Below are positions 2,232-45,475 of a stretch of 45,475 nucleotides of DNA, one piece after another; positions within the stretch are counted from its first letter, which is position 1; every line of letters starts with the position of its first letter. A model generated the notes under the pieces. That model was not told where the DNA came from. It saw only the letters and a program-made list of their open reading frames with translations, and did not search any database. Source of the stretch: Polyangium sp. 15x6 (GTDB lineage: Bacteria > Myxococcota_A > Polyangia > Polyangiales > Polyangiaceae). The DNA is taken from the NCBI RefSeq assembly GCF_029960785.1, contig NZ_JASBQE010000095.1, positions 1-45,475 of the forward strand, in the 5' to 3' direction. The translations under genes were made by a program, and so were the position numbers.

Positions 2232-2246
2232 AGGAACACGGCTTCC

Positions 2247-2939: not shown

Positions 2940-2948
2940 GAACGACCG

Positions 2949-3362: not shown

Positions 3363-3372
3363 GGTATTCGAG

Positions 3373-3588: not shown

Positions 3589-3592
3589 AGCC

Positions 3593-3913: not shown

Positions 3914-3915
3914 CC

Positions 3916-4598: not shown

Positions 4599-4601
4599 GC
4601 C

Positions 4602-5336: not shown

Positions 5337-5346
5337 GGAACGTTCG

Positions 5347-5532
5347 ATGGCCCGTGCAAAAGAATTCGCCAAGCTGAACCGGCCGCCCAAGTTCGCCGTG
5401 CGGCACCGGAACCGTTGCAAGGTGTGCGGCCGTTCGCGGGCTTATTACCGCGATTTCGAGCTCTGCCGCATCTGTCTTCGTACGTTCGCGCTCCGAGGCG
5501 AGCTGCCGGGCGTGATCAAGGCGAGCTGGTGA
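5347..5532 (+). CDS. rpsZ: 30S ribosomal protein S14, zinc-binding type Z
   Basis: A 61-residue short-form S14. The zinc ligands Cys24, Cys27, Cys40 and Cys43 ([11 protein letters not shown]...CRIC) are all present, which defines the zinc-dependent type; the long cysteine-free paralogue expressed under zinc limitation is not in the window. [16 protein letters not shown] is the chosen start: an upstream in-frame start would overlap rplE by 23 bases. Its position between rplE and rpsH is canonical. It sits in the head of the small subunit near S3 and S10. Confidence 0.97.
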
Positions 5533-5536
5533 TGCC

Positions 5537-5929
5537 ATGATGACCGATCCTGTCGCCGACATGCTGACCCGGATCCGGAACGCCGCGCTCGCGCGGCATG
5601 ATCGGACCGAGGTTCCTGCAAGCAAAATGAAGCAGGCCGTTGCCGAGATCCTCAAGTCCGAGGGGTACATCGCGGACGTGCGGCCGAGCGACGGCAACCC
5701 TGGGAAGCTGACGATCGTGCTGAAGTACGGGCGTGACCGCTCGAGCGCGATCGACGGAGTCCGTCGGGTGAGCCGCCCGGGGCGACGCGTGTACGTCAAG
5801 CACGACCGCATCCCCCGCGTGCTCTCCGGCCTCGGGATCTCGATCCTGAGCACCTCCCACGGCCTGATGAGCGACCGCGACGCCCGCAAAAACAAGCTCG
5901 GAGGCGAGCTCATCTGCGAGGTGTGGTGA
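5537..5929 (+). CDS. rpsH: 30S ribosomal protein S8
   Basis: A 130-residue protein, normal length. S8 binds helix 21 of 16S rRNA and in many bacteria also represses spc operon translation. MTDPVADMLTRIRNA opens the fold, and the C-terminal signature ISILSTSHGLMSDRDARKNKLGGE-type segment (about residues 100-124) is intact. Two tandem ATG codons (5537 and 5540) could both serve as start. Its TGA overlaps the ATG of rplF. Confidence 0.97.
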   Translation: MMTDPVADMLTRIRNAALARHDRTEVPASKMKQAVAEILKSEGYIADVRPSDGNPGKLTIVLKYGRDRSSAIDGVRRVSRPGRRVYVKHDRIPRVLSGLGISILSTSHGLMSDRDARKNKLGGELICEVW

Positions 5930-6528
5930 TGCAAACGGCTACGACGCAACAAGGCGAGGCCTCCAAGACCTCGCGCATCGGCAAGCGACCGGTGGACGTC
6001 CCCAAGGGCGTTACCGTGTCGATGCAGGGGCGCAAGGTCGAGATCAAGGGCGCCAAGGGCCAGCTCGCGCGCGAGCTGCCTTCGAGCATCGACGTGAAGG
6101 TCGAGGGCGCGAAGCTGCACGTGACCTCGACGGCGCCCGGGCGTGATGGCTCGCGGCTGCAGGGGCTCGTGCGGGCGCTGCTCGCCGGCATGGTGAAGGG
6201 CGCGGCCGACGGCTACGAGCGGGTGCTCGAGCTGAAGGGCACCGGTTACCGTGTCGACCTGAAGGGCACGACGCTCACGTTCGCGCTCGGGTATTCGCAC
6301 CCGGTCGTGTTCAACGTGCCGAAGGGCCTCACGGCGACGATCCCGGCGGATTCGAAGGGCACGGTCCTCGTTCTGACGGGCGCCGACAAGGAGCTCATCG
6401 GGCAGACGGCCGCGACGATCCGCGGCTTCCGTCCGCCGGAGCCCTACGGTGGCAAGGGCGTTCGTTATCGTGGCGAGCGCGTTCGCGAGAAGGCCGGCAA
6501 GGCTGGCGGTAAGGGCGGCAAGAAGTAA
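5929..6528 (+). CDS. rplF: 50S ribosomal protein L6
   Basis: A 199-residue protein; typical L6 is about 178. It binds 23S rRNA near the factor-binding stalk base. The usual start SRIGKRPVDVPKGV begins at about residue 15, so a short polar tail (MQTATTQQGEASKT) is added, and a Lys/Gly-rich tail extends the C-terminus after GVRYRGERVREKAGK. The conserved GTGYRVDLKG and RPPEPYGGKGVRY segments are present. I chose ATG 5929, which overlaps the rpsH stop (TGATG); GTG codons at 5923 and 5926 are less likely. Confidence 0.94.
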   Translation: MQTATTQQGEASKTSRIGKRPVDVPKGVTVSMQGRKVEIKGAKGQLARELPSSIDVKVEGAKLHVTSTAPGRDGSRLQGLVRALLAGMVKGAADGYERVLELKGTGYRVDLKGTTLTFALGYSHPVVFNVPKGLTATIPADSKGTVLVLTGADKELIGQTAATIRGFRPPEPYGGKGVRYRGERVREKAGKAGGKGGKK

Positions 6529-6534
6529 CCGAGC

Positions 6535-6555
6535 GGGGCGACGTCGTGTCGCCCC
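6535..6555 (+). promoter_or_regulatory. Strong hairpin between rplF and rplR
   Basis: GGGGCGAC (6535-6542) and GTCGCCCC (6548-6555) pair perfectly over eight bases around a five-base loop. No T-tract follows, so it is unlikely to be a simple intrinsic terminator. It may act as an RNA-stability or attenuation element inside the spc-type operon. Confidence 0.45.
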
Positions 6556-6576
6556 TACAGGTACGGGGTTACGACC

Positions 6577-6936
6577 ATGGCTATGAAGATCGTCGGACGG
6601 GAGCGCCGCAAGCTCCGTATTCGCAAGAAGGTGAACGGCTCGCCCGCTCGCCCGCGCCTCACCGTCTTCCGCAGCGCGAAGCACATCTACGCGCAGGTGA
6701 TCGACGACACGACGGGTCAGACCGTCGCGCACGCGTCGACGCTGTCGAAGGACCTGAAGGGCACGCTCGACAACGACAACAAGGTCGACGCGGCCAAGAA
6801 GGTCGGGGCGCTCATCGCCAAGATCTGCAAGTCGAAGAAGATCGACCGTGTCGTGTTCGATCGGAACGGCTACCTCTATCACGGGCGCGTGAGCGCCCTC
6901 GCTCAGGCCGCGCGGGAGGCGGGGCTCGAGTTCTAG
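6577..6936 (+). CDS. rplR: 50S ribosomal protein L18
   Basis: A 119-residue protein, normal length. L18 binds 5S rRNA together with L5. The Arg/Lys-rich start ([13 protein letters not shown]), the [19 protein letters not shown] segment and the closing [26 protein letters not shown] are all diagnostic. It follows rplF by 48 bases, a gap containing an eight-pair hairpin, and is separated from rpsE by 86 bases; these are wider gaps than elsewhere in the block. Confidence 0.97.
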
Positions 6937-7022
6937 CCCCGAAGGCGCCGGACCCGCGGGGGTCACGGGCAAAACGTCTCGGGCGATAGCGAAGACTTCA
7001 CGGACGACGAAGAAGGCACGGT

Positions 7023-7628
7023 ATGGCGTTCGATCAGGTCGACGAAGAAAAGCTCAAGGAGCGGGTGATCCACATCAACCGCGTCGCCAAGGTCGTGAAG
7101 GGCGGGCGGCGCTTCAGCTTCTCGGCGCTCGTCGTTGTGGGCGACGAGTCGGGACATGTGGGCGTCGGCCTGGGCAAGGCCAACGAGGTCCCGGAGGCGA
7201 TCCGGAAGGGCAACGATCAGGCCCGCAAGAACATCTTCCGCATCCCGCTCGACGGGGCGACGATCCCGCACGACGCGTTCGGGCACGTCGGCGCGGGCAA
7301 GGTGCTCTTGAAGCCGGCGAGCCCTGGAACGGGCGTCATCGCGGGCGGCGCGGTGCGCGCGGTCGTCGAGTCCGCGGGCATCCACGACGTTCTCTCGAAG
7401 TCGCTCGGCACGAGCAACCCGCACAACGTCGTTCACGCGACGGTGGCGGCGCTCAAGGCGCTGAAGAGCGTGGAGCAGGTCGCGGGCCGGCGCTCGATGC
7501 AGGCGGACGACGTGGGTTGGCAGCGCAAGGGTGGCAACGCGACGGGCAGTGCGACGAGCCGTCGTCGCGCGAGCCAGATGCCCCCGGCACGCTCTCCGCG
7601 TGAGGGGGGTGAAGGAGGTACGCCGTGA
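7023..7628 (+). CDS. rpsE: 30S ribosomal protein S5
   Basis: A 201-residue protein; the family is usually about 165-175. S5 acts in mRNA entry and decoding fidelity. The double-stranded RNA-binding region ([19 protein letters not shown]), the fidelity-related [15 protein letters not shown] loop and the C-terminal [12 protein letters not shown] helix are complete. About 35 residues of low-complexity tail follow, rich in Arg, Ser, Gly and Pro. The stop overlaps the GTG start of rpmD by four bases (GTGA). Confidence 0.96.
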
Positions 7629-7834
7629 AGACCCATCTCCGCGTACGGCAGACGGGCAGCGTGACGAACCAGACGGAGCACACGCGCAAGGTTTTGCGGG
7701 GCCTCGGCCTTCGCAAGCCGGGCAATGAGGTGCTCGTGGCGAACACGCCCTCGTTCCGTGGCATGGTCAAGAAGGTGATCCACCTCGTTTCGGTCGAGGA
7801 AGTCGACGGCAACGGCGCGCAGGCGTCGAAGTAA
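7625..7834 (+). CDS. rpmD: 50S ribosomal protein L30
   Basis: A 69-residue protein; L30 is normally about 60. The GTG start at 7625 overlaps the rpsE stop and lies just after AAGGAGG (7611-7617), a strong Shine-Dalgarno sequence. The fold signature [27 protein letters not shown]-type helix and the closing [13 protein letters not shown] are present. A short tail of about eight residues is added. It lies in the canonical rpsE-rpmD-rplO order. Confidence 0.93.
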
Positions 7835-7848
7835 GGAAGCGTAGCAGC

Positions 7849-8322
7849 ATGGACATCCTCTCGAAGCTTCAGGCCCCGGAAGGCGCCAACAAGAAGGAGA
7901 CCCGCGTCGGCCGCGGCGTGGGCTCCGGCCTCGGCAAGACGGCGGGTCGTGGCCAGAAGGGCCAGAAGGCCCGGTCGACGGGCAACATCGGCAAGAAGCA
8001 CTTCCAGGGCGGCCAGACCCCGATCCAGCGTCGCCTGCCGAAGCGCGGCTTCCGCAACCCGCTCGCGGCGATCGTCGCGAACGTGAACGTCGGCGACCTC
8101 GAGATCTTCGAGGCTGGCGCGGACGTGAACCAGGAAGCGCTGGAGGGCAAGCGCCTGCTCCAGGGTCGTTACGACCTCATCAAGGTGCTCGGCGACGGCG
8201 AGCTCACGAAGAAGCTCACCGTGACGGCGCACCGGTTCTCGAAGAGCGCCATCGCCAAGATCGAGGCGGCGGGCGGCAAGGCGATCGTGCTTGCGCCCGG
8301 CAAGGCTTCGGCGCAAGCCTAA
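7849..8322 (+). CDS. rplO: 50S ribosomal protein L15
   Basis: A 157-residue protein, slightly above the usual 145-150. L15 is a late-assembly protein with a long N-terminal extension running into 23S rRNA. The Gly-rich extension [22 protein letters not shown], split by typical Arg/Lys residues, and the [17 protein letters not shown] motif identify it. The C-terminal globular half ends with [17 protein letters not shown]. It sits 14 bases after rpmD and 45 bases before secY. Confidence 0.96.
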
Positions 8323-8367
8323 CGTCCTTTCGGCTCGAGCCCCCCCAAGGCAGCACACCGACGTACC

Positions 8368-9696
8368 ATGGCCACACTCGCGGGAATTGCGAACTTCCAC
8401 AAGGTCCCGGAGCTCCGGCGCAGGGTGATCTTCACCCTCGTGATGCTGGCCGTGTACCGCATCGGGGTCTTCGTCACGGTCCCCGGCGTCGACCGCGCCG
8501 CCATGTCGAAGTACATGGCCAAGCAGTCAGGCGGTCTGCTGAACTTCTTCAACATGTTCTCCGGCGGCGCGCTGGAGAACTTCTCCCTCTTTGCGCTCGG
8601 GATCATGCCGTACATCTCGGCATCGATCATCATCCAGCTGATGGGCATGGTCTACAAGCCCATCGACGAGCTGCGCAAAGAGGGAGAGCAGGGGCGGCGC
8701 AAGATCGACCAGTACACGCGCTACGGCACGGTCGCGCTGTCGCTCTTCCAGGCGTACGGCAGCGCCAAGCTCGTCGAGGGCTGGTCGGCCTCGGATGCGG
8801 GCGCGGGCATCGTCACGCACCCGGGTCTCGGCTTCCAGCTCATGACGATGATCACGCTGACCACGGGAACGGCGTTCCTCATGTGGATCGGCGAGCAGAT
8901 CACGGAGCGCGGCATCGGCAACGGCATCTCGCTCCTGATCTTCGCGGGCATCGTGACGGGCGTGCCGGGCTGGGTGGGCAGCTATCTCGCGACGAACGCG
9001 GGTAACATCCAGCCGCTCACGATCTCGGCGGTCGGCGCGTTCGTCGTGGCTGCGATTGCGGTGATCGCGTTCTTCGAGAACGGTCGCCGGCAGATCCCGA
9101 TCGTGTATTCGCGGCGGCAGGTGGGGCGGCGCGTGTACGGCGCGCAGAACGCGCACCTGCCGCTCAAGGTGAACACGGCGGGCACGATCCCGCCGATCTT
9201 CGCCTCCTCGCTGCTCATGTTCCCCGCGACGCTGGCGAACATGAACGTGCCGGGCGCGGACAAGCTCCAATCGATCATCAGCGGTGGCGGCTGGGTGTTC
9301 AACACCGGCTACGCGCTCCTGATCGTGTTCTTCTGCTACTTCTACACGAGCGTCACGTTCCAGCCGGTCGACGTGGCGGAGAACCTGAAGAAGCAGCAGG
9401 CGAACATCCCTGGCATTCGCCCGGGCAAGCAGACGGCGGACTACATCCAGGGCGTGATGAATCGCATCACGTTCGGCGGGGCGATGTACGTCGCGGCCGT
9501 GTGTGTCTTGCCGTCGGTGGTTGGTGACCTCCTGCGTGTGCAGATCACGTTTGGCGGGACGTCCCTGATGATCGTCGTGGGTGTTGCGCTGGATACGGTC
9601 AACCAGATCGAGGCGCAGCTCATCACGCGCAGCTACGAAGGGCTCACCGGCCCTGGGGCGAGCCGCATTCGGGCGCGGCGCCTCCCCGAGGGATGA
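8368..9696 (+). CDS. secY: Protein translocase subunit SecY
   Basis: A 442-residue integral membrane protein with about ten transmembrane helices, the pore of the Sec translocon. The N-terminal region FHKVPELRRRVIFTL and the plug-region segment GGLLNFFNMFSGGALENFSLFALGIMPYIS (spread over about 52-82) are typical. The cytoplasmic loops that contact SecA and ribosomes are recognisable, including PIVYSRRQVGRR and a loop near NLKKQQANIPGIRPGK. The C-terminus ends in an Arg-rich tail. Its position between rplO and adk is canonical. Confidence 0.97.
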   Translation: MATLAGIANFHKVPELRRRVIFTLVMLAVYRIGVFVTVPGVDRAAMSKYMAKQSGGLLNFFNMFSGGALENFSLFALGIMPYISASIIIQLMGMVYKPIDELRKEGEQGRRKIDQYTRYGTVALSLFQAYGSAKLVEGWSASDAGAGIVTHPGLGFQLMTMITLTTGTAFLMWIGEQITERGIGNGISLLIFAGIVTGVPGWVGSYLATNAGNIQPLTISAVGAFVVAAIAVIAFFENGRRQIPIVYSRRQVGRRVYGAQNAHLPLKVNTAGTIPPIFASSLLMFPATLANMNVPGADKLQSIISGGGWVFNTGYALLIVFFCYFYTSVTFQPVDVAENLKKQQANIPGIRPGKQTADYIQGVMNRITFGGAMYVAAVCVLPSVVGDLLRVQITFGGTSLMIVVGVALDTVNQIEAQLITRSYEGLTGPGASRIRARRLPEG

Positions 9697-9712
9697 GAAG
9701 GGAGATCTTCGG

Positions 9713-10351
9713 ATGATCGCGATCTTGGTTGGTCCGCCCGGTTCGGGCAAAGGCACGCAGGCGAAGGTCCTCACCGGCAAGTTTGGGATCCCGCAGATCT
9801 CGACGGGTGACATGCTTCGCGCGGCCAAGACGGCTGGCACGCTCGATCCGCGGTACCGTGCGATCATGGACGCGGGCGGCCTCGTTCCGGACGAGGCGAT
9901 GATCGAGCTCATCGACAAGCGCATCGACGACGCGGACTGCAAGAACGGGTTCTTGCTCGACGGTTTTCCGCGTACGGTCCCCCAGGCCGATGCGCTCGAG
10001 CGTCTGCTTGCGGGTCGTGGCCTTACGATCGATGCTGTTTTGCAGCTGGATGTGGCGCGATCTCTCCTGGAGGAGCGCTTGATCCACCGTCGGACCGACA
10101 AAAGGTCTGGACAGATCTACCATCTCGTCTATAATCCGCCGCCCCCGGATGCCGAGCTAGAGCATCGGGCGGACGATCGGCCGGAGGCCGTCGGAAAGCG
10201 TCTCGATGCGTACGAGGCGATGACGGCGGCGCTCCTGCCCTACTACGAAGCAAAAGGTCTCCTCCGGCGTGTCGACGGTGTCGGCAAACCCGAGGAGGTC
10301 ACGGCGAGGGTGCTTGAGGCCCTTGGCCGAGTGCAGTCGGAAGAGTCATGA
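9713..10351 (+). CDS. adk: Adenylate kinase
   Basis: A 212-residue cytosolic enzyme that converts ATP and AMP to two ADP. The P-loop G7-P-P-G-S-G-K-G is intact, followed by the AMP-binding helix STGDMLRAA, the FLLDGFPRT motif and a long LID domain (about residues 125-160, [18 protein letters not shown]). The LID has no cysteines, so it is the zinc-free kind. I start at ATG 9713, where the P-loop begins, 16 bases after secY. Its stop overlaps infA by four bases (ATGA). The methionine aminopeptidase gene often found next to adk is missing. Confidence 0.96.
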
Positions 10352-10602
10352 GGCGATCGAACCAAAGCTCGAAACCCGCGAAGGAACCGAAGGGCGACAA
10401 GCTCGAGTTCGATGGTGTCGTTCAGGAGGCTCTTCCGAACGCGATGTTTCGGGTGAAGGCCGACAATGGTCTCGGGGTGCTCGCGACCATCAGCGGCCGG
10501 ATGCGTCAGTACTACATCAAAATTTTGCCCGGCGATCGCGTTACGGTCGAGGTTTCGCCCTACGACCCGACGCGTGGCCGGATCACGTATCGTCACAAGT
10601 AG
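10348..10602 (+). CDS. infA: Translation initiation factor IF-1
   Basis: An 84-residue OB-fold protein that occupies the A-site during initiation; the usual length is 72. The fold from [19 protein letters not shown] to [24 protein letters not shown] and GRITYR is complete. About 14 extra residues ([15 protein letters not shown]) precede it, giving a basic tail. The start overlaps the adk stop by four bases. The spacing to rpmJ is 48 bases. Confidence 0.95.
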
Positions 10603-10650
10603 ACCAAGCAGCCCAAGTAGCGGAGCGAGGACAGGGAACGGAGCCGCGAC

Positions 10651-10764
10651 ATGAAGGTGCGACCGAGCGTCAAGAAAATCTGCGACAAGTGCAAGGTGGT
10701 GCGCCGTCGCGGCGTCGTGCGCGTGATCTGCGAGAACCCTCGCCACAAGCAGCGTCAGGGCTGA
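10651..10764 (+). CDS. rpmJ: 50S ribosomal protein L36
   Basis: A 37-residue zinc-ribbon protein beginning [15 protein letters not shown]. The ligands Cys11, Cys14, Cys27 and His32 are all present, so this is the zinc-binding form. It ends in HKQRQG. L36 stabilises 23S rRNA near the peptidyl transferase region. It lies in the canonical spot between infA and rpsM, 12 bases before the latter. Confidence 0.96.
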
Positions 10765-10776
10765 GCTGGAGCAACC

Positions 10777-11157
10777 ATGGCACGTATTGCTGGCGTCGAT
10801 CTCCCGCGTCGTAAGCATCTCGCGTATGCGCTTCCGTACCTCTATGGTATCGGCCGCGCGCTCGCGAAGCAGATCTGCGCGAAAGCCAAGATCCCCGAGA
10901 ACAAGCGGGTGGAGGAGCTGAACGACGCAGAGATCAGGACGATCCGCGAGATCCTCGACGCCGAGTACAAGGTGGAGGGCGATCTTCGTCGTGAGGTTCA
11001 GCTCAACATCAAGCGGTTGATGGATCTGGGCTGCTACCGCGGTCTTCGGCATCGCCGCGGTCTGCCGGTGAATGGCCAGCGCACGCACACGAACGCGCGT
11101 ACGCGCAAGGGCCCGCGCAAGGGCATGCTGCAGCGTCGCCCGGCGACGAAGGCGTGA
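10777..11157 (+). CDS. rpsM: 30S ribosomal protein S13
   Basis: A 126-residue protein in the head of the small subunit, contacting the P-site tRNA and bridge B1. [26 protein letters not shown] is typical (helix-two-turn-helix), as are the [28 protein letters not shown] segment and a Lys/Arg-rich tail. It opens the alpha-type part of the block. rpsK follows after 23 bases. Confidence 0.98.
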
Positions 11158-11180
11158 CGGGACGTTAGGAAGAGGACGCT

Positions 11181-11585
11181 ATGGCGAGTCCGAAGACGGC
11201 GGCCACCAAGGCCAAGCAGAAGAAGAAGGTCAAGAAGAACATCGCGGCTGGGATCGCGCACATCCAGTCGACGTTCAACAACACGGTCGTGACGATCACG
11301 GACATCAACGGCAATGCCGTGGCGTGGTCGTCGGCCGGTGCGCGCGGGTTCAAGGGGTCGCGCAAGTCGACGCCCTTCGCTGCGCAGCTCGCTGCCGAAG
11401 AGGCGGCGCGGCGGGCGCAGGAGCACGGGATGCGGTCGGTGGCCGTATTCGTGAAGGGCCCTGGCGCCGGGCGCGAGAGCGCGCTCCGGGCGCTGCAGAC
11501 GGCCGGCTTCAAGGTGACGTTGATCCGCGACGTCACGCCCATTCCGCACAACGGTTGCCGGCCGCCCAAGCGGCGCCGGGTCTGA
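11181..11585 (+). CDS. rpsK: 30S ribosomal protein S11
   Basis: A 134-residue protein of the small-subunit platform. The signature [20 protein letters not shown] and the closing [19 protein letters not shown] are diagnostic. A Lys-rich N-terminal tail ([11 protein letters not shown]) is normal for the family. rpsD begins 36 bases later. Confidence 0.98.
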
Positions 11586-11621
11586 AGCAGCGCGCGCGGG
11601 AGTCCGCTCGAGGTTACGAAC

Positions 11622-12251
11622 ATGGCTCGCTACGTTGGTCCTGTCTGCAAGCTCTGCCGCCGCGAAGGCATGAAGCTCTACCTCAAGGGAGAGCGCTGCT
11701 ACTCGGAGAAGTGTGCCTACACGCGGCGTCCTTACCCGCCCGGCCAGCATGGCCAGGGTCGCATCAAGCTCAGCGAGTACGCCGTCCGGCTCCGCGAGAA
11801 GCAAAAGGTGCGTCGCATCTACGGCGTTCTCGAGAGCCAGTTTCACGGCTACTTCCAGGAGGCGAGCCGTCGCAAGGGCCGCACGGGTGAAGAGATGCTG
11901 GCGCTCCTCGAGCGTCGCCTCGACAACGTCGTGCATCGGCTCGGCTACGCGGCGTCGCGCTCCGAGGCGCGTCAGCTCGTGCGCCACGGTCACGTGAAGG
12001 TGAACGGCAAGCGCCTCGACATCCCGAGCTTCGTGGTTCGGGTGGGCGATCGCGTGGAGCTCACGGAGGGCGCGAAGAAGTTCAAGTTCGTGGCGGCCGC
12101 CGTGGCCGGCGCGGACAAGCGCCCGATCGCCTCGTGGCTCGAGGCCGACCGCGGATCGTTCTCGGGTTCGGTCAAGGGCACCCCGGTGCGCGAGGACCTC
12201 AACGAGCCGGAGATCCGCGAGCAGCTCGTCGTCGAGTACTACTCGCGCTGA
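11622..12251 (+). CDS. rpsD: 30S ribosomal protein S4, zinc-binding form
   Basis: A 209-residue primary rRNA-binding protein. The N-terminal zinc site is intact: Cys9, Cys12, Cys26 and Cys31. The S4 RNA-binding domain at about residues 95-160 contains [33 protein letters not shown]. The protein ends in QLVVEYYSR. In many bacteria S4 represses the alpha operon. Here a terminator-like hairpin lies directly after the gene, before rpoA. Confidence 0.97.
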
Positions 12252-12297
12252 TTCTGTTCGCAGGTCGGTGGTCTTGCGGTGAACGTTTCGGAAAGCT

Positions 12298-12338
12298 GAT
12301 CGGGGGCGTGCGAGGGAGCGCGGCCCCGATCGCTTTTT
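12298..12338 (+). terminator. Intrinsic terminator-like hairpin between rpsD and rpoA
   Basis: GATCGGGG (12298-12305) and CCCCGATC (12324-12331) pair perfectly around an 18-base loop, followed by GC and five Ts (12334-12338). It has the form of a rho-independent terminator on the plus strand. Since rpoA and rplQ follow on the same strand, it is either a partial terminator/attenuator or it means rpoA has its own promoter in 12339-12453. Confidence 0.6.
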
Positions 12339-12453
12339 GATTGCAGGAAAATAGCGCCATCCGGCGCGACGCGGGCAGGAGACGGCTTTCGCTCACCGAG
12401 TGCGGTGACGGGGCGAGATTTCCGCGCGAACCCCTCGAAGAAAGAGGACGCTG
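12339..12453 (+). promoter_or_regulatory. rpoA leader
   Basis: The rest of the 202-base gap. It contains a small hairpin, TCACCG (12393-12398) with CGGTGA (12403-12408), and an AAGAGGA ribosome binding site just before the rpoA ATG. No good -35/-10 pair was recognised, though TTGATT at 12337-12342 lies directly after the terminator. Confidence 0.35.
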
Positions 12454-13497
12454 ATGACGATGCAGACCAGCGGAAGCATGACGATGATCGCGCGAAACTG
12501 GCGCGATCTGATCCGCCCGAAGGGCATCTCGATCGACACCGAGTCGTCGAACAACTTCTACGCGAAGTTCACTTGCGAGCCTCTCGAGCGCGGCTTCGGG
12601 ATCACGATCGGCAACTCGCTTCGCCGCGTGCTCCTCTCGTCGCTGCAGGGCGCGGCGATCACCGCCGTCCGCATCGAGGGGGCGCTGCACGAGTTCACCA
12701 CCGTGCCCGACGTCGTCGAGGACGTCAGCGACATCATCCTCAACCTCAAGGAGGTCGTCTTCAAGGCGGCCGCCGCGCGGACCTACACGGTCCGCATCGA
12801 CAAAGAGGGCCCGGGGCCGGTGTACGCGCGCGACATTCAGCTCGTCGACGGGCTCAGCGTGCTGAACCCCGATCACCTGATCGCGGTGCTCGCCAAGAAG
12901 GGCCCGCTCGCGATGGAGCTGACGGTGAACGTCGGCCGCGGCTACGTGCCCGCGGAGCGGAACAAGACGCCGACGATGGCGATCGGGACGATCCCCATCG
13001 ACGCGCTGTTCTCGCCCATCCGCAAGGTCAACTACACGATCCAGAACGCGCGCGTCGGTCAGGTGACCGATTACGACAAGCTGACGCTCGAGGTCTGGAC
13101 GAACGGCTCGGTGCTGCCCCAGGACGCGGTCGCGTTCGCCGCGAAGATCCTGAAGGAGCAGCTCTCGATCTGGGTCAACTTCGAGGAGTCGGAGGAGACG
13201 AGCTACCAGACGGTGCCGGGCGACGAGGAGCCGCTGAACGAGAACCTCTTCCGCTCGGTCGAGGAGCTCGAGCTCAGCGTGCGCAGCGCCAACTGCCTCC
13301 AGAACGCGAACATCACCCTGATCGGCGAGCTCGTGCAGCGGACCGAGCAGGACATGCTGAAGACCAAGAACTTCGGTCGGAAGTCCCTCAAGGAGATCAA
13401 AGAGATCCTTGCGAACATGGGGCTTTCGCTCGGTATGAAGATCGACAACTGGCCGCAGCTGCTCGAGCGCTGGAAGGCGCAGCAGGCGCAAGCCTAG
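12454..13497 (+). CDS. rpoA: DNA-directed RNA polymerase subunit alpha
   Basis: A 347-residue protein. The N-terminal dimerisation domain (about 20-250) carries [30 protein letters not shown]-type sequence. The linker is acidic ([18 protein letters not shown]), and the C-terminal domain (about 270-340) that binds UP elements and activators has the [16 protein letters not shown] and [15 protein letters not shown] helices. ATG 12454 is preceded by AAGAGGA; ATG codons at 12478 and 12484 are alternatives that would remove an unusual Met/Ser-rich start. rplQ follows after ten bases. Confidence 0.97.
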
Positions 13498-13507
13498 AGG
13501 GTGCGAT

Positions 13508-14074
13508 ATGCGTCATAAGAAGGCGGGGAGGCAGTTTGGTCGGGACACGTCGAGCCGGCGCGCGATGCTGCGCAACTTGACGGCGAACCTGATCACCCAC
13601 GAGCGCATCGAGACGACGGACGCGAAGGCCAAGGAGCTCCGGCGCGTCGCGGAGCGGCTCATCACCAAGGCCACGCGCCTCGGCAAGGTCGCCTATACCG
13701 CGCAGAGCGAGCTGTCGGCGGCTGACAAGGCGCGCCGGCTCCACGCCGAGCGCCTCGTCTCGTCGTACGTGCCGCGCTTCGGCGTGAAGGCCGACGGGAC
13801 CAAGGTCGACGTCGTCGAGAAGGTGATGCTCGACCTCTCGAAGCGCTTCGAGGGCCGGCCCGGTGGCTACACGCGCATCATCAAGCTCGGCAATCGCCGC
13901 GGCGACAATGCGCCGATGGTCTACATCGAGTTCATCGACGCGGCGCAGGTGACCGACAAGCAGGCTCCCGAGGAGCCGGCTGCGGCGGTGACCGCCGAGC
14001 CCACGTCGGCCGCGTCGGCCTCGGCCGAGTCCGCCTCGACGGCGAGCTCGGGCGAGACCGCGTCGAACGAGTAA
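13508..14074 (+). CDS. rplQ: 50S ribosomal protein L17 with acidic/Ala-Ser C-terminal tail
   Basis: A 188-residue protein. L17 lies near the exit tunnel. The canonical 120-140 residue fold is complete (MRHKKAGRQFGRDTSSRRAMLRNL, HERIETTDAKAKELR, GGYTRIIKLGNRRGDNAPMVYIEF segments, separated here). From about residue 145 it continues into a tail of Ala, Ser, Glu and Thr (QAPEEPAAAVTAEPTSAASA...), acidic rather than basic like the other tails in the block. It is the last gene of the block and is followed by two hairpins. Confidence 0.96.
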   Translation: MRHKKAGRQFGRDTSSRRAMLRNLTANLITHERIETTDAKAKELRRVAERLITKATRLGKVAYTAQSELSAADKARRLHAERLVSSYVPRFGVKADGTKVDVVEKVMLDLSKRFEGRPGGYTRIIKLGNRRGDNAPMVYIEFIDAAQVTDKQAPEEPAAAVTAEPTSAASASAESASTASSGETASNE

Positions 14075-32014: not shown

Positions 32015-34719
<2,705 letters not shown>

Positions 34720-34809
34720 GCTCGGCGGGGCCCTTTTCGTGAGGAAATCACGCCCGATTGGTGCCCGTTTCGCGCGCTCGCGGTCGAGGCGCTCCCGAGC
34801 GGCCGGAGG

Positions 34810-35940
34810 TCAGCCCGCGCCCTCGTCGAGCTCGCCCCGAAACACGCGGAAGTCACGCCGTCCCTCGGCCGGTATGTCCTCCGCGCGGATGAGCTCGGGG
34901 CGCGTGGTCGTCAGGAAAATCTGACCGCGATGGAGCGCGAGGAATGAAAAGAGCGCGCCCGTGCGCTCCGGATCGAGCTCGCTCGAAACGTCGTCGAGCA
35001 AGAGCAAGGGCTCGATGCCCCGCTCTTTGGCGATCGTCGCCGTCTCGGCCGCCTTGAGCGCAAGCGTGAGCGCGCGATGTTGTCCCTGCGACGCGACCAC
35101 GCGCGCCGGATGCCCGTCCAGCATGAGCTCGAGCTCGTCGCGATGCGGGCCAAACCCCGCCGACGCCCGAAACGCATCCCGCTTTCGGCCCCGCGCGAGT
35201 TCGCCGCGCGCCGTCTCCACGTCGGCCGAGCCTCCCGGCGCGTATCGCGCTTCGAGGCGGAGGTCGGGCGCGGCGATCTGCGCGAACGCGCTCACGAGCT
35301 CGACCACGAGCGCCTCGGCCGCCGCCGCGCGCGCCCGCGTGAGGGCCGCGCCATGCTCGGCGCAGAGCTCCTCGAACGCGTCGAGCTCACGCGTATCTCT
35401 CGAAGGCATGTCCGCGCCGCGCCGCAAAAGCTCCTGCCTCGCTTTGAGCGCATGCGCATATCGCGCGCGCGCGTCGGCGCTCTCGGGCCGCGTGAAGAGC
35501 GCGAGCCGGTCGAGCAGCGTGCGCCGTCCCTGCGCGGGCCCGCTCGACAGCGTGAGCTCCTCGGGATGAAACACCACGACGGGCGAGCGCGTCGCGTACT
35601 CGACGAGCGCGCGCGGCCGATTGCCGTCGATGCGCACGGCCACGCTCTTGCCCTGCACCGCGGCCGTCTGCTCGCGCGAGAGCGCCGGCAGCGCGCCGCC
35701 GCGCTCGACGAAGCGCGCCTTCACGCTCGCCGCCTCCTCGCCGTGCCGCACGAGCTCGCCCACGCGCGACGTTCGAAAGCTCTTCGAAGTCGCGGCGAAG
35801 TAAATCGCCTCGAGCACGCTCGTCTTGCCGTGCCCGTTGTTGCCCCACACGACGTTGAGCCGCGGCGCGGGCTCCATGTCCACCCGCGAGAGGACGCGCA
35901 GGCCGCGCACGCTGAGCCGTTCGAGCTCGAGGCGATTCAT
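34810..35940 (-). CDS. recF: DNA replication and repair protein RecF
   Basis: A 376-residue SMC-like ATPase that loads RecA at gaps with RecO and RecR. Walker A is WGNNGHGKTSVLEAIYF, near residue 33. The signature ASQGQHRALTLALKAAE and Walker B LLLLDDVSSELD lie near the C-terminus. It starts MNRLELERLSVRGLRVL, typical of the family. It lies 87 bases downstream of dnaN, the gap holding a REP-like hairpin, and is followed by gyrB. Confidence 0.96.
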   Translation of the reverse strand: MNRLELERLSVRGLRVLSRVDMEPAPRLNVVWGNNGHGKTSVLEAIYFAATSKSFRTSRVGELVRHGEEAASVKARFVERGGALPALSREQTAAVQGKSVAVRIDGNRPRALVEYATRSPVVVFHPEELTLSSGPAQGRRTLLDRLALFTRPESADARARYAHALKARQELLRRGADMPSRDTRELDAFEELCAEHGAALTRARAAAAEALVVELVSAFAQIAAPDLRLEARYAPGGSADVETARGELARGRKRDAFRASAGFGPHRDELELMLDGHPARVVASQGQHRALTLALKAAETATIAKERGIEPLLLLDDVSSELDPERTGALFSFLALHRGQIFLTTTRPELIRAEDIPAEGRRDFRVFRGELDEGAG

Positions 35941-35946
35941 CGAGAT

Positions 35947-35987
35947 TCACCCCTCTGCCGGCGGGAGAGGGGTCGGGGGTGAGGGTG
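35947..35987. repeat. REP-like intergenic hairpin between dnaN and recF
   Basis: ACCCCTCT (35949-35956) pairs with AGAGGGGT (35966-35973) around a nine-base loop, followed by CGGGGGTGAGGG. Read on the minus strand it has the form CCCTCACCCCCGACCCCTCTCCCGC, shown in two parts, a known dispersed intergenic element of GC-rich genomes; its spurious translation is the familiar LTPDPSPAGRG. It may stabilise or attenuate the dnaN transcript. Confidence 0.6.
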
Positions 35988-36027
35988 TATCGGAGACGGG
36001 TCGCGGCGCTGATGTAGCGACCGCGTT

Positions 36028-37152
36028 TCAAATCCGCATCGGCATGATGACCGAGACATAGCTCTCGGCCGCCGACTCCGTCGCCGGACGGATGACCGCG
36101 GGGTCGAGCTCGCCCGACACGCCGAGGACGACCTCGTCGTCGCTGATGGCCGCGAGCACGTCGAGGAAGTACTTCGCGTTGAAGCCGATCGTCACCTCGG
36201 GGCCGTCGTAGTCGATCGGCACCTCGTCGAAGCCGTTGCCGCTCTCGGGGCTCTCGCTCGTGATGCGCAGCGCGCGCGGCGTCACCGTGAGCTTCACGCC
36301 GCCCGTGCGGTCGCTCGCGGCGAGCGAGACAGCGCGCAGGGCCTCGGCGAGCTGGGCGCGCGGCGCGCGGATGCTCCGGTCGCTCACGTTCGGGATGACC
36401 TGCTGGTAGGGCGGGAACTGCGCGTCGACGAGCTTCACCGAGAAGGTCATGCCACCGACGCCGAAGAACGCGTTCGGCCCGCTCTGCGTGATGTGCACCG
36501 TGGGCGTCTCCTTGTCGACGCCGCTCGTGAGCCTGCGCAGCTCGTGGATGGCCTTGAGGGGGATGAGCATCGTCGCCGTCGCGCTCGTCCCCTCGAGCGT
36601 GACCTCCATCTTGGACAGCCGGTGACCGTCGGTCGTGACCATGCGGACGCGGTGGCCGGCCCACTCGAAGAGCGCGCTGTTCACGTGGGCGCGCGTCTCG
36701 TCGGTCGAGATGCTGAAGTGCGTGCGCTCGATGAGGCGCGAGAGCAGCTCCACGGGCAGCTCGAGCGAGGGCGCGTCGGGCGCGGGCTTCGGGAGCTGGG
36801 GGAACTCGCTGCCGGGCATGCCGTGCAGCGTGTAGCGGCGCGGCGAGCCGACGGCCTTGATGACGGTCTGCGCGCCCTCGCGCGCGGTCACCTGGATGGG
36901 CCCGTCGGGCATGGCCTTCACGCGGTCGAGCAGGTCCTTCGCCGGAACGGCCACGGAGCCTGCGCTCACGATTTCGGCCGCCGTCTGACCACTCACCGCG
37001 AGGTAGAGGTCGGTCGCGGAAACGCGCAGCGCGTTCCCATCGGCGGCGAGCAGCACGTTGGCGAGCACCGGCATGGCGCTCTTCTTGTCGGCGACGCCCT
37101 GGCAGCGGTCGACGAGGCGCAGCAGATCTTTCTTCGCGATGACGAGGTCCAT
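36028..37152 (-). CDS. dnaN: DNA polymerase III subunit beta (sliding clamp)
   Basis: A 374-residue three-domain ring protein that tethers polymerase III to DNA. MDLVIAKKDLLRLVDRCQGVAD opens domain 1. Domain 2 has the RTHFSISTDETRAHVNSALFEW segment, and domain 3 ends in VSVIMPMRI, the usual clamp C-terminus. Length is normal. It heads the dnaN-recF-gyrB run. Upstream, where dnaA usually lies, there is a spacer with DnaA-box-like motifs and a divergent kinase gene. A TGCTAAGAG sequence about 45 bases upstream on its strand could be an extended -10. Confidence 0.97.
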   Translation of the reverse strand: MDLVIAKKDLLRLVDRCQGVADKKSAMPVLANVLLAADGNALRVSATDLYLAVSGQTAAEIVSAGSVAVPAKDLLDRVKAMPDGPIQVTAREGAQTVIKAVGSPRRYTLHGMPGSEFPQLPKPAPDAPSLELPVELLSRLIERTHFSISTDETRAHVNSALFEWAGHRVRMVTTDGHRLSKMEVTLEGTSATATMLIPLKAIHELRRLTSGVDKETPTVHITQSGPNAFFGVGGMTFSVKLVDAQFPPYQQVIPNVSDRSIRAPRAQLAEALRAVSLAASDRTGGVKLTVTPRALRITSESPESGNGFDEVPIDYDGPEVTIGFNAKYFLDVLAAISDDEVVLGVSGELDPAVIRPATESAAESYVSVIMPMRI

Positions 37153-37684
37153 GGCCCTTCAACTCCGCCGCGGCGGGAAAGCAGCGGGTCGGTCCCTCTT
37201 AGCAGGGTTATCGGCGGGGCGAAGGTCGAAAAGATGACCGAGGCAAACGTGACCAGGCTCACCCGTTCCCCTCCGATCTAGGGAGATCATTAGATCTAGA
37301 TCAGGTCGTCATCGTAGAGCCTGTGGACGATGGGGAAAACTCTGGATCGGCCCATGATTTCGATGACTTACGGATCCACCCCCCTGTGGATTGTTCGGGG
37401 AGGCCCCGGGGTCGGGTCGGGGAGATCTCGACGGGGGGACGGCCGAGCCCGGTTCTCTCCCCAAGGCAGACCCTGGGATCACCGGAAGTTATCCCCAGCT
37501 TGCCCCCGTTCGGCTGTAGGCGCCGCGGACTGACCAGACGAGCACCTGCGTACCGATGCGTACCGAGTGCGTCATGGGCCGCCCGCGCGCGGCGTGTGCT
37601 TCCGTCGTGGGAACGAAAACGCGATCGCCGAGCGATTTTGCAGTGGCCGCGCGCGACGGAATGGCCGAACGTAGGGCTCGCGCG
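37153..37684. other. Divergent spacer with DnaA-box-like motifs, candidate oriC
   Basis: A 532-base gap between dnaN (minus) and the kinase gene (plus). Motifs close to the DnaA box TTATCCACA are TTATCCCCA (37489-37497, plus strand, 8/9), CAATCCACA (complement of 37385-37393, 7/9), TCGTCCACA (complement of 37322-37330, 7/9) and TTTTCCCCA (complement of 37331-37339, 7/9). A locally AT-rich stretch with four GATC sites and the palindrome GATCTAGATC lies at 37275-37302. This fits the form of a chromosomal origin. Against it: dnaA is not adjacent, and no perfect DnaA box is present. Confidence 0.5.
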
Positions 37685-42011: not shown

Positions 42012-43183
42012 CGCGAACCTTCGGGAAGACGCTGGCCGTGTTCGCCGCGGCCGCGCTGTCACTATCCTTCGCGCCGCGCGACGCCGAGGCCCAGAAAGCC
42101 GCGGACGTCCCGCCGGGCGAGACGCCGACGCCCACGACGCCGCGCGTCCATCACGCGCCGATCGCCAGCGCGGAGCCGGGCACGAAGCTCGTGCTGGAGG
42201 CGTCGTTCGAGCATGCGGAGCTCATCCGGAACGTGCTCGTCGTCTACCAGACCGCGCTCGGCGAGACGAAGGCCGTGCCGTTCCAGCGGGGCGGCGAGAG
42301 GGGCTACATCGCGGTCATCCCGGGCGAGGCACTCAAGGCGCCGGGGATCGGCTACACGATCGAGGTCGAGCAGATGAACGGGACGCGCTTCTCCGCGTTC
42401 GCGTCCCGGCAGAAGTTCCACCCGGTCAGCGTGATCGAGGATCGGACCGACGCGAAGGAACGAGCGGCGCTCAGTCGGCTCGGCGGGCGTCGCTCGGTCG
42501 TCGGGGTGGCGGGCGAGTACGTGGGCTTCGGGAAAACGACGGGCACGACGCCGATCCCATGCGCGGCGGGTCAGCCGACCTGCACGCCGGGCGAGGAGGT
42601 CCTGCCGGCGGTCGACGAGCAGTACTACCGGGTGGAGGCGAGCTACACGTACCGGCCGCTGCGCACGGTGTCGGAGTTCGGCTTCCGGCTCGGCCTCGTG
42701 CGCGGCTGGTCGCTCGTGCCGCTCTCCGAGTACAACGAGGAGCGGTACAAGGTCGGCCTGAACTTCGGCGCGGCGCGCATCCGCTTCCGGCTGCTCGACC
42801 TCTGGCACCTGGAGACGGAGCTCCAGACCAGCGTCACGGAGATCGGCTTCTCGGTCGGCCTCGGGGCGTCGACGTTGATCGGCGACCCGTACGGCTCGAA
42901 GCTCATCCTCGGGTTCGAATCACTCGGCCTCGGGGACAGCGCGCCGTTCGGGAATCGGTTCTACAGCCGGCTCGATCTGGTCGCGGGCGACCGCGTGCTC
43001 GTCTCGCCGATCGTCGAGGTGACGGACATGCCGAACGCGGAGACGTACGGCGTGCGTCTGATCGGCGAGGTAGGCATCACGCTCGGGCGTGGGTTCTCGG
43101 TGCAGGTCCGAGGAGGCTACCAGGCGCGGAGGTCGACGTCGGGTGGACCCGGGTTCGGCGGCAGCGTCCTCTACGCCTTCTGA
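42005..43183 (+). CDS. Outer-membrane barrel protein, related to its upstream neighbour
   Basis: A 392-residue exported protein. Residues 1-29 form a signal peptide (LAVFAAAALSLSFA then DAEAQ). A beta domain (about 55-140) has LVLEASFEHAELIRNVLVVYQ and GYIAVIPGEALKAPGIGYTIEVEQ. The C-terminal 220 residues alternate in a barrel pattern and end in GGPGFGGSVLYAF with a terminal Phe, the outer-membrane assembly signal. The last residues match those of the neighbour upstream (GPGFGG...Y), so the two probably arose by duplication. The start overlaps the upstream stop by seven bases; the 3' end overlaps bioD by 13 bases on the opposite strand. Function unknown. Confidence 0.8.
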   Translation: MVTRTFGKTLAVFAAAALSLSFAPRDAEAQKAADVPPGETPTPTTPRVHHAPIASAEPGTKLVLEASFEHAELIRNVLVVYQTALGETKAVPFQRGGERGYIAVIPGEALKAPGIGYTIEVEQMNGTRFSAFASRQKFHPVSVIEDRTDAKERAALSRLGGRRSVVGVAGEYVGFGKTTGTTPIPCAAGQPTCTPGEEVLPAVDEQYYRVEASYTYRPLRTVSEFGFRLGLVRGWSLVPLSEYNEERYKVGLNFGAARIRFRLLDLWHLETELQTSVTEIGFSVGLGASTLIGDPYGSKLILGFESLGLGDSAPFGNRFYSRLDLVAGDRVLVSPIVEVTDMPNAETYGVRLIGEVGITLGRGFSVQVRGGYQARRSTSGGPGFGGSVLYAF

Positions 43184-43872
43184 TTCTGGCCCTCGAGGGC
43201 GAGCGCCGAGAGCGCCCACTTCGCCGCCGCCCTCGTCTCCTCGGCCGTCGGCTCGGCCCGGGGAAATCCGACCAGCCTCGGAACGATCTTCAACTCGACG
43301 AGCTCCTCCGCATTCGTCCCCGTGGACGCATCCGGCACCGCCGGCGGCTGGAGCACGAGCAGCGGCACCGGCAGGTCCGCGGCCATCGTGCGCAGGGCGT
43401 GCAGCGTGACCGCGACATCGTGGAGCACGCCGAGCCGATCCGAAGCCACGAGCAGCAGGTGATCGGGTCGCAGCACGCGCACGAGGTCCAGGTTGGCGAG
43501 CCCCGGCCCGAGCGGCGACAGGAGCGCCCCCGCCGTCTCGATGACCAGGACCTCCGCGCAGGCATGCATGTCGACCCACTCGGCCACGCGACCCAGATCG
43601 ATGCGCATCCCCAGGCGACGCGCGGCCAGGTGCGGCGACACCGGATCCGGCAGCGCGTAGGGCAGGGGATGTTTCACGTGAAACGTGCTGAACGCCGCGA
43701 GCGCGGAGGCGTCGGTCGGGGTCGTGGGGGAAGGCTCCGACGGAACGCCGGACTCGATGGGCTTGAGGCCCGCGACCGAGACGCGAGCCGAGGCGAGGGC
43801 AGAGACGAGGGCAACACCCGCGTGGGTCTTCCCGACGCCGGTTCCGGTTCCGATGACGACGATGCGACTCAT
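43171..43872 (-). CDS. bioD: Dethiobiotin synthetase
   Basis: A 233-residue ATP-dependent carboxylase-like enzyme that makes dethiobiotin from diaminopelargonic acid. It starts MSRIVVIGTGTGVGKT, with the P-loop GTGTGVGKT, and the conserved KPIESG motif follows. The later VIETAGALLSPL motif matches the family's EGAGG-like segment. ATG 43872 overlaps the bioF stop by four bases. Residues of the FHVKH stretch are encoded by a near-perfect parS sequence. The 3' end overlaps the convergent outer-membrane gene by 13 bases. bioA and bioB are not in the window. Confidence 0.9.
   Translation of the reverse strand: MSRIVVIGTGTGVGKTHAGVALVSALASARVSVAGLKPIESGVPSEPSPTTPTDASALAAFSTFHVKHPLPYALPDPVSPHLAARRLGMRIDLGRVAEWVDMHACAEVLVIETAGALLSPLGPGLANLDLVRVLRPDHLLLVASDRLGVLHDVAVTLHALRTMAADLPVPLLVLQPPAVPDASTGTNAEELVELKIVPRLVGFPRAEPTAEETRAAAKWALSALALEGQNQKA
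43670..43685. other. parS-like centromere site inside bioD
   Basis: TGTTTCACGTGAAACG differs from the parS consensus TGTTTCACGTGAAACA at the last base only; the inner 14 bases GTTTCACGTGAAAC are a perfect palindrome. ParB proteins bind this sequence, and parS sites cluster near the replication origin. It is embedded in bioD coding sequence. No parA or parB gene is in the window. Confidence 0.85.
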
Positions 43873-44990
43873 GGCTTCCAGCCTTCCGCGAAGGCGGTGA
43901 CGATCTGAGAGAGGTCCGCGTCGGTGAGGCGCGCATGCGCGGTGACGCGAAGGCGTGAGGTGCCCGGCGGGACCGTCGGGGGGCGAATGGCCTGAACGAG
44001 GACGCCACGCTCGCGCAGGCGAAGCGAGATGCGAACGGCCTCCTCGGGAGGACCCACGAAGCAAGGGAGGATGGGCCCATGCGAAGGGAGGAGCGCGTCT
44101 CCGATGAGGGAGGCGAGTCCGGCGCGCAGACGGTCCGTGACCTGGTCGAGCCGAGCGCGCGCCTCGTCATCGGCCGCGACACGGAGGACCCGATGCCGGA
44201 TGGCGGCGGCGAGGGCAGGGCTGATGCCCGTGGAGAAGACGAAGCTACGGGCGCGGTTCCAGAGCCAGGTGCGGAGGACCATCGGCCCGACCACGAACGC
44301 ACCCTGGAGCCCGAGCGCCTTCCCGAGCGCCCCGACGAGCACGTCCGGCCGAACACCCGCCCGCGCCGCGAGTCCTCGACCTTCGGGCCCGAGGGTCCCG
44401 ACCGCGTGGGCCTCGTCCACGATGAGCGCGGCATCCCATCGGTCACACGCGGCCCGGAGCCGGACGAGGTCGGGCGAGTCGCCATCCATGCTGAAGTACG
44501 ACTCGGTGACGAGCCATCGCCGCGGCGCACCCTGCGCCTGCTCGAGCGCGGCCTCGGCGGCAGCCGCATCCCGATGGGGAACGACGACGACCTTGGCTCC
44601 GGAGAGCCGACAGCCATCGATGATGGAAGCGTGGTTCAATGCATCCGAGACGATGACGTCCCCCGGCCGGGCGAGAGCCGAGAGGGTCCCGACGTTGGCC
44701 GCGTACCCGGACGAGAACAGGAGGGCGGCTTCGAAGCCGAGCCAGGTTGCGATCGTCTGCTCGGCGAGCGCATGTTCGGCGTGATGTCCGCTGACGAGGC
44801 GTGAAGCGCCGGCGCCGGAGGGAGCCTCGGAGGGCGCGGGCCAGGGGTCGGTTCCGTATCCGAGGTAATCGTTCGAGCAGAGGACGAGGCATCCCGACGG
44901 CGCCGGTGCGCTCGGCTTGCGGAGCAGGCCAGCCTGGTCGAGCGCCGCAATCTCCGCCGCGAGATGGCGAAGGGCGCCGAGTTCGGTCAT
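43869..44990 (-). CDS. bioF: 8-amino-7-oxononanoate synthase
   Basis: A 373-residue PLP enzyme that condenses pimeloyl-ACP (or -CoA) with L-alanine in biotin synthesis. The conserved motifs are CSNDYLGY, GASRLVSGHHAEHALAE, ALLFSSGYAANVGTL, DALNHASIIDG, DEAHAVGTLGPEGRG and the PLP lysine in GALGKALG. The start is ATG 44990, overlapping the zapA stop by four bases. The first 25 residues are rather short compared with E. coli BioF. It is the second gene of a zapA-bioF-bioD run. Confidence 0.95.
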   Translation of the reverse strand: MTELGALRHLAAEIAALDQAGLLRKPSAPAPSGCLVLCSNDYLGYGTDPWPAPSEAPSGAGASRLVSGHHAEHALAEQTIATWLGFEAALLFSSGYAANVGTLSALARPGDVIVSDALNHASIIDGCRLSGAKVVVVPHRDAAAAEAALEQAQGAPRRWLVTESYFSMDGDSPDLVRLRAACDRWDAALIVDEAHAVGTLGPEGRGLAARAGVRPDVLVGALGKALGLQGAFVVGPMVLRTWLWNRARSFVFSTGISPALAAAIRHRVLRVAADDEARARLDQVTDRLRAGLASLIGDALLPSHGPILPCFVGPPEEAVRISLRLRERGVLVQAIRPPTVPPGTSRLRVTAHARLTDADLSQIVTAFAEGWKP

Positions 44991-45310
44991 CGGTCGTCCT
45001 CGTCGGATGCGTCCGCGCCGGGTTCGAGGGCGCCGAGCGCGGCGTCGACGCGTTCGAGCATGCGACCGAAGGCGATGCGGGTGCGGGCAAGCTGGTCGGT
45101 GTGGCGGGCGCGCTCTTCTTCGAGGTCGTGGGCGAGGGCGAGTGCCGCGAGGAGGAGGGCCTGGGGGTTGACCATGCGGCCGGGGCCGGCGACTTGTGTG
45201 AGCTTCTCCTCGACCATGAGGGTGAGGCGGTGGAGTTCGTCGTCGGACGCGGAGGTGACGACTCGATATGTCTGGCCGCCGATGCGGAGCTGGACCTGAC
45301 GGCCACCCAT
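44987..45310 (-). CDS. zapA: Cell division protein ZapA
   Basis: A 107-residue protein. ZapA promotes FtsZ filament bundling at the division ring. The start ATG 45310 gives MGGRQVQLRIGGQTYRVV, the typical N-terminal strand, followed by ELHRLTLMVEEKLTQV and a long C-terminal coiled coil (NPQALLLAALALAHDLEEE...). An acidic tail ends the protein. The stop overlaps bioF by four bases. Longer upstream frames overlap the hairpin region and look unnatural. Confidence 0.85.
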   Translation of the reverse strand: MGGRQVQLRIGGQTYRVVTSASDDELHRLTLMVEEKLTQVAGPGRMVNPQALLLAALALAHDLEEERARHTDQLARTRIAFGRMLERVDAALGALEPGADASDEDDR

Positions 45311-45402
45311 GGCGGGGGGACGGTACCATGAGGGGGGCCGGGATGCGAGGCGGGGAGGGAGGGTCGGAGGTGGTGGCCACCCGGAGGGGCACGAGGGCGT
45401 GC

Positions 45403-45472
45403 GCGGGGCTTTGCCCCGCACCCCAGCAGGGGGCTGTCCGCCCCCTGCACCCCGGACCAGCGCAAGCGCTGG
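45403..45472. repeat. Three consecutive GC hairpins at the window end
   Basis: GCGGGGC/GCCCCGC (45403-45419), GCAGGGGGC/GCCCCCTGC (45426-45448) and CCAGCG/CGCTGG (45457-45472) follow one another closely. They lie upstream of zapA, probably at the 3' end of a gene beyond the window. The pattern resembles the hairpin after rho and suggests a dispersed, multi-copy intergenic element. Copy number cannot be seen here. Confidence 0.6.
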
Positions 45473-45475
45473 ACT

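Follow-up and report, generated by a model that had tools for sequence, protein, structure and literature searches.

A conserved parS site inside bioD marks a probable centromere beside dnaN in Polyangium and related myxobacteria

ParABS systems generally involve the loading of a ParB clamp, the loading of SMC and segregation driven by ParA. The parS sites themselves are reported to be confined almost entirely to the vicinity of ori, and Pseudomonas aeruginosa is described as needing them within about 650 kb around it (PMC5815017). In that species, 9 of 10 predicted parS sites are stated to lie most likely within coding sequences (PMC4368675) and thus, on that account, a parS inside a gene is ordinary. 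Among myxobacteria, Myxococcus xanthus is described as carrying about 22 parS sites (consensus TGTTCCACGTGGAACG) in 3 kb, at a distance of about 4 kb from parA; its parAB genes are placed about 35 kb from oriC (PMC3899335). For Sorangium cellulosum So ce56, an origin next to dnaN and nearly 2 Mb from dnaA is mentioned as a suggestion of Gao and Zhang 2008, and the same source describes this chromosome as lacking the usual GC-skew inversion (PMC8538405).

We examined a parS-like sequence in a window of 45,475 nt that corresponds to the entire contig C270 of the Polyangium sp. 15x6 assembly (13,383,143 bases in 275 contigs). A preliminary description of this DNA had recognized a near-perfect parS site inside bioD, considered a chance match very unlikely in a window of this size, predicted that ParB is targeted here and that the region is origin-proximal, and proposed a scan for further sites and a GC-skew check. 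The features around the site are as follows.

43670..43685, no strand: parS, TGTTTCACGTGAAACG, 15/16 to canonical, one of four exact 14-mers genome-wide
43171..43872, minus strand: bioD (dethiobiotin synthase), host of the parS, NCBIfam bioD, 79.7 bits (cut-off 83.3)
43869..45392, minus strand: bioF-containing ORF, TIGR00858 bioF 359 bits, below the cut-off of 426.45
45401..45475, no strand: contig-end overlap, 75 bases shared with the start of contig C36

The first two claims agreed with our results. TGTTTCACGTGAAACG differs from the canonical parS TGTTTCACGTGAAACA by a single outer base, and its inner 14 bases form a perfect palindrome. When the whole window was scanned, this was the sole place within three mismatches of TGTTTCACGTGAAACA, and 100 dinucleotide shuffles of the window yielded a mean of 0.03 such matches, with at least one match in 3 of them. 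The site lies within a 233-aa ORF whose sole NCBIfam match is bioD, slightly below the curated cut-off, and the ORF immediately upstream has bioF as its best match, also under cut-off. Because the bioF homology begins only at residue 168, the start of this second ORF is probably located further inside. Although both models score under their cut-offs, the placement of parS inside bioD is sound.

The genome-wide scan revealed four places within two mismatches of the 16-mer, every one of them carrying the identical 16-mer, and none for the reversed control; when the 14-mer was allowed three mismatches, the signal was drowned (266 places vs 112 for the control). The three further exact sites are all located on contig C36, at 324, 1023 and 4958 (14-mer cores at 325, 1024 and 4959). 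Since C36 starts with the same 75 bases that end the window, the four sites form one cluster of ∼6.7 kb, in which the order after joining is aroC - parS - aroKB - parS - parS - bioD(parS) - dnaN. This order agrees with that of the congeners L078, L080 and G005, and gene order could be read directly, at least partly, in all five congeners. Exactly four 14-mers with similar spacing were present in 6 of 6 genomes of the genus (our genome and five others), the congeners carrying all four on a single contig in 4 of 5 cases and split into three plus one in G003. Beyond the genus, the exact 14-mer was found in 31 of the 39 genomes searched (our genome included), with 1 to 8 copies per genome among the matches listed, while the reversed control occurred in 0/39. 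It was missing from the remaining 8 of the 39, so that not all members of the order share this exact core.

Several observations on these sequences deserve mention on their own. The overlap between window 45401-45475 and C36:1-75 is a GC-rich repeat whose seeds also occur in two sampled stretches of G005 (L159 and L238), and therefore a dispersed repeat probably broke the assembly at the window end. On C36 (L022:323-340), parS provides an in-frame ATG (M-F-H-V-K-R), with another possible start further downstream; automated annotation may therefore begin the protein inside parS. In a Labilithrix MAG (L097), both parS-like sites (8816 and 10126) have the same variant core, GTTTCACGTGACAC, possibly reflecting a shared shift in ParB specificity. 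Finally, a Polyangiaceae MAG (L085) contains ten parS-like sites (≤1 mismatch) at 4583-8676, spread over ∼4 kb of the DNA upstream of bioD.

As for the partition proteins, profile matching identified a single PF17762 (HTH_ParB) protein in the genome, encoded on contig C184. A parA-like gene adjoins parB, its matches to ParA models being below the cut-offs; the same contig also carries tig-, clpX- and lon-like genes, named by reading. Comparison of this ParB with solved structures gave ParB-family proteins as best matches, with 7bnk first and 6t1f, which we take to be Caulobacter ParB, fourth. In the alignment to 6t1f, and according to our own residue mapping, the equivalents of R173, N178, G201 and R204 are kept, an Asn occupies the position equivalent to S172 and a Lys is found at position 184. 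Residues of the R173/G201 type are described as those of parS-binding ParB (PMC7383237). The genome hence combines a ParA-like protein with a ParB whose Arg and Gly are those characteristic of proteins that bind parS. The usual, non-universal location of parAB near the origin did not apply to the two near-closed relatives, in which parB lies more than 4 Mb from parS (4.52 Mb in G005 and 4.36 Mb in G024); in our genome it is on a separate contig. The preliminary reading of the site as a ParB target is thus supported, as a prediction of binding, by the three additional sites, the counts in the genus, the ParB residues and the conservation of the site in bioD presented below.

These data also bear on whether the palindrome could instead serve as the operator of some other DNA-binding protein, such as one regulating biotin or aromatic amino-acid genes. 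The sites do sit among bio and aro genes, which speaks for such a regulator. Nevertheless, the sequence is that of canonical parS, one copy is placed in the middle of a gene, all exact copies of the genome are gathered in one cluster, a ParB with parS-type specificity residues is encoded in the genome and the same core recurs in most of the relatives searched, which makes an operator a very improbable explanation.

To examine conservation at the DNA level inside bioD, we surveyed 69 BioD loci from named genomes and scanned all of them for the 14-mer. It was present with at most one mismatch at 26/69 loci and lay inside bioD at 16/69 (14 exact and 2 with one mismatch). All 16 intragenic sites fall at one and the same position of bioD and share one reading frame, just before the S-P-H-L-A-A-R region. 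A further locus, L083, was flagged by the script as inside bioD and excluded, its offset of 808 being beyond the bioD domain matched in relatives. Record titles of the 16 comprise Polyangium (3), Minicystis, Myxococcales, Polyangiaceae, Labilithrix and one ‘uncultured delta proteobacterium’. The embedded site was found in 6/6 genomes of the genus (the window, L050, L078-L080 and L272) and in G024; L078-L080 share site coordinates with G002-G004, apparently the same genomes, and for that reason add nothing to the genus count. In Sorangium (L082, L083 and L117) and G023, parS lies beside and not inside bioD, indicating that the intragenic position is not essential. With regard to ascertainment, one search peptide contained FHVKH, and all 16 loci with parS in bioD hold another search peptide.

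The window site encodes F-H-V-K-H through the codons TTT CAC GTG AAA CAT. When the 16 loci and the window were considered together, TTT, CAC and GTG were kept in 17/17 and AAA in 15/17 (14/16 without the window), the two exceptions, L087 and L097, using ACA. Two of these codons are rare in the window, where TTT accounts for 33 of 348 Phe codons and AAA for 53 of 645 Lys codons in genes called by our own mechanical script. The bases flanking the intragenic parS vary while TTT and AAA are nearly invariant. This occurs in proteins of quite different relatedness: the closest BioD proteins found, from three named Polyangium genomes, are 88-91% identical to that of the window, and parS-carrying BioD proteins from outside the genus are 36-58% identical over the aligned parts. 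The same spot, the same frame and the retention of rare codons point to selection on the bioD-embedded site as DNA.

Could the match instead have arisen by chance, or simply follow from a conserved F-H-V-K peptide in BioD, without a role in segregation? A clean peptide in the same frame at 16/16 loci is what this explanation predicts. Against it, F-H-V-K was absent at that point from the siteless BioD proteins among the 38 of 69 loci covered by the detailed comparison, which have other residues instead (the other 31, including one more Myxococcota MAG, L118, are siteless). In addition, the nearly invariant rare codons stand between variable flanks, the three further exact 14-mers, ∼2 to 6.7 kb from the bioD site, are matched in the genus by sites near aroC and aroKB, and no genome contained the reversed control. 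We consider that this explanation has a negligible chance of being correct.

We then turned to the location of the site relative to the replication origin. The window includes a group of genes that comprises the origin marker dnaN.

36028..37152, minus strand: dnaN (DNA polymerase III beta clamp), TIGR00663, 239.8 bits, over cut-off; origin marker gene
34810..35940, minus strand: recF, TIGR00611, 272 bits, over cut-off
32015..34609, minus strand: gyrB, NF011501, 1120.4 bits, over cut-off
37153..37555, no strand: candidate oriC, intergenic region upstream of dnaN, lower GC and DnaA-box-like motifs

The dnaN-recF-gyrB group (32015-37152) lies 6.5 kb from the window parS. In G005, dnaN and parS are separated by 6.6 kb; in G024, the gap is about 17 kb. 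Polyangium, Minicystis, Sorangium, G023 and G024 all carry the three genes near parS. In the 403-base stretch upstream of dnaN, the GC content is 63%, compared with 68% across the window; of the 200-base GC dips from 14 kb onward, the second deepest (56%) falls within this stretch and the deepest at ∼40.1 kb. Motifs of the GTTATCCCCA, TTTTCCCC and TCCACAG types upstream of dnaN are common to Polyangium and partly present in Minicystis and Sorangium. A TTWTNCACA box was not found in the 75 kb around parS. The canonical DnaA box, TTATCCACA, had 2, 3 and 6 copies in the three genomes examined vs 10, 11 and 19 for the reversed control, and formed no cluster in them. Elsewhere in the window, positions 1893-14074 of the plus strand carry a ribosomal-protein cluster that runs through secY to rpoA and rplQ, named by reading.

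A different arrangement would be that parS is real and replication starts at dnaA, leaving the centromere ∼1.2 Mb from the origin. In our genome dnaA is located on another contig, beside dnaK/grpE-like and ATP-synthase-like genes (named by reading), and has two related DnaA-box-like 9-mers directly upstream, which fits an origin at dnaA. In G005, whose main contig has 13.24 Mb, dnaA (11.651 Mb) and parS (12.902-12.908 Mb) are 1.25 Mb apart; in G024, a single contig of 12.24 Mb taken as circular for this purpose, the positions are 0.001 Mb for dnaA and 11.063-11.064 Mb for parS, a distance of 1.18 Mb. The distance to dnaA would thus have argued against origin proximity. The recurrence of dnaN-recF-gyrB near parS in five lineages or genomes speaks for an origin on the dnaN side. 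In G036, of another family of the same order, dnaA (9.823 Mb), the better of two dnaN matches (9.904 Mb) and parS (9.936 Mb) all fall within G036:C1:9822844-9937517, dnaA being only 81 kb from dnaN.

To distinguish between both locations, we analysed strand polarity in G005 and G024. The GC-skew check proved uninformative in 60 stretches of 20 kb from each genome, the signal being noisy and without a usable switch. In the same number and size of stretches we counted, on both strands, GGGNAGGG, which we take to be the FtsK-orienting motif of E. coli (KOPS-like). The sampling covers about 9-10% of each genome and is densest between dnaA and parS and beside parS; one pair of stretches overlaps in each genome (by 14 kb at 11.794/11.800 Mb in G005 and by 6 kb at 11.486/11.500 Mb in G024), so that a few motifs were counted twice. 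In G005, there were 15 forward and 41 reverse motifs at 12.05-12.90 Mb and 41 and 20, respectively, from 12.90 Mb across the end of the contig up to 0.35 Mb (Fisher P = 1.7e-5). In G024, the counts were 10/29 at 10.3-11.065 Mb and 29/14 at 11.065-11.8 Mb (P = 1.8e-4). Because the interval limits were chosen around parS, these P values are indicative only. A two-breakpoint fit without chosen intervals placed the origin at 12.928-12.936 Mb in G005 and at 11.020-11.042 Mb in G024, and hence the fitted switch is at most ∼45 kb from parS in both genomes. The lnL gain with the origin at parS was 20.1 vs 6.7 at dnaA in G005 and 12.7 vs 9.4 in G024; forcing the origin to dnaA fitted worse by 13.4 and 3.4 lnL units, respectively, the preference in G024 being modest. 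None of 300 shuffles reached the best GGGNAGGG gain in either genome.

Next to dnaA the polarity of GGGNAGGG was mixed (17/18 at 11.65-12.05 Mb in G005 and 5/10 at 11.8-12.25 Mb in G024), which speaks for an origin at dnaA. Six control fits (three motifs in two genomes) were also carried out. In G005, GGGANGGG preferred a place near dnaA, with a gain of 7.4 at dnaA vs 2.9 at parS and 8/300 shuffles reaching its best, and GGANGGGG peaked at parS with a gain reached by 228/300 shuffles. The other four fits pointed elsewhere, two of them, in G024, being matched by 13/300 and 22/300 shuffles. Two further approaches were dropped. K-mer strand classifiers trained on the arms were right in 27, 30 and 20 of 36 leave-one-out cases (k = 6, 7 and 8) and gave no clear answer for the dnaA-parS interval; the orientation of 16S rRNA genes was abandoned after no 16S was found in 4 of 5 genomes, all four of the window's family. 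With the KOPS-like motif favouring parS in both genomes, we regard an origin at dnaA as unlikely, and the dnaN side as the likeliest candidate for the origin. The origin proximity that had been predicted for this DNA is therefore upheld by indirect markers, namely dnaN-recF-gyrB in the window and a polarity switch near parS/dnaN in two relatives; parS is not near dnaA.

Taken together, our preferred reading, to which we assign a probability of roughly 90%, is that the bioD sequence is a genuine chromosomal parS, one of four in ∼6.7 kb that would constitute a centromere at the origin, beside dnaN-recF-gyrB. According to this reading, replication would fire most likely just upstream of dnaN. ParB would load at the parS cluster around bioD and form a CTP-dependent clamp that closes and then slides along the adjacent DNA, SMC would be loaded at the same cluster, and the origin region, once replicated, would be drawn apart by ParA. 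The site would be written into the coding sequence of bioD at a variable loop of the enzyme that tolerates F-H-V-K. A broader proposal, which we consider probable and hold less firmly, is that this loop keeps the centromere nearly letter for letter across myxobacterial lineages, segregation fixing F-H-V-K, and that in the family the origin-centromere locus has been split from dnaA (∼1.2 Mb) and from parAB (>4 Mb), so that the initiator gene, the origin and the partition genes would all be unlinked.

This arrangement would offer a natural test of whether parS has to be near oriC, near dnaA or near parAB, and of the three, only proximity to oriC seems to hold. It would also locate an origin-centromere region where GC skew is uninformative and dnaA seemingly misleads, and chromosome records of the family that are numbered from dnaA may not begin at the origin. 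The parS embedded in bioD would, in addition, illustrate well how a signal at the DNA level can constrain the sequence of a protein.

Compared with the systems described so far, Polyangium resembles M. xanthus in having a myxobacterial parS cluster near the origin, where, in the account available for M. xanthus, ParB binds the consensus parS. Unlike M. xanthus, it has four copies of TGTTTCACGTGAAACG with one inside bioD, and parB is far from them in two relatives. Unlike P. aeruginosa, the host gene is bioD and the embedding has been retained in several lineages of the order. As suggested for So ce56, the origin is argued here to be beside dnaN and far from dnaA; in contrast with what is reported for that strain, the case made here for Polyangium and another genus is based on motif polarity, is linked to parS and involves a distance of about 1.2 Mb instead of nearly 2 Mb. 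Overall, the case is well supported and of known kinds, a parS within a gene and an origin on the dnaN side; what is less ordinary is the deep retention of the site in bioD, together with the separation of both the origin and parS from dnaA and parAB.
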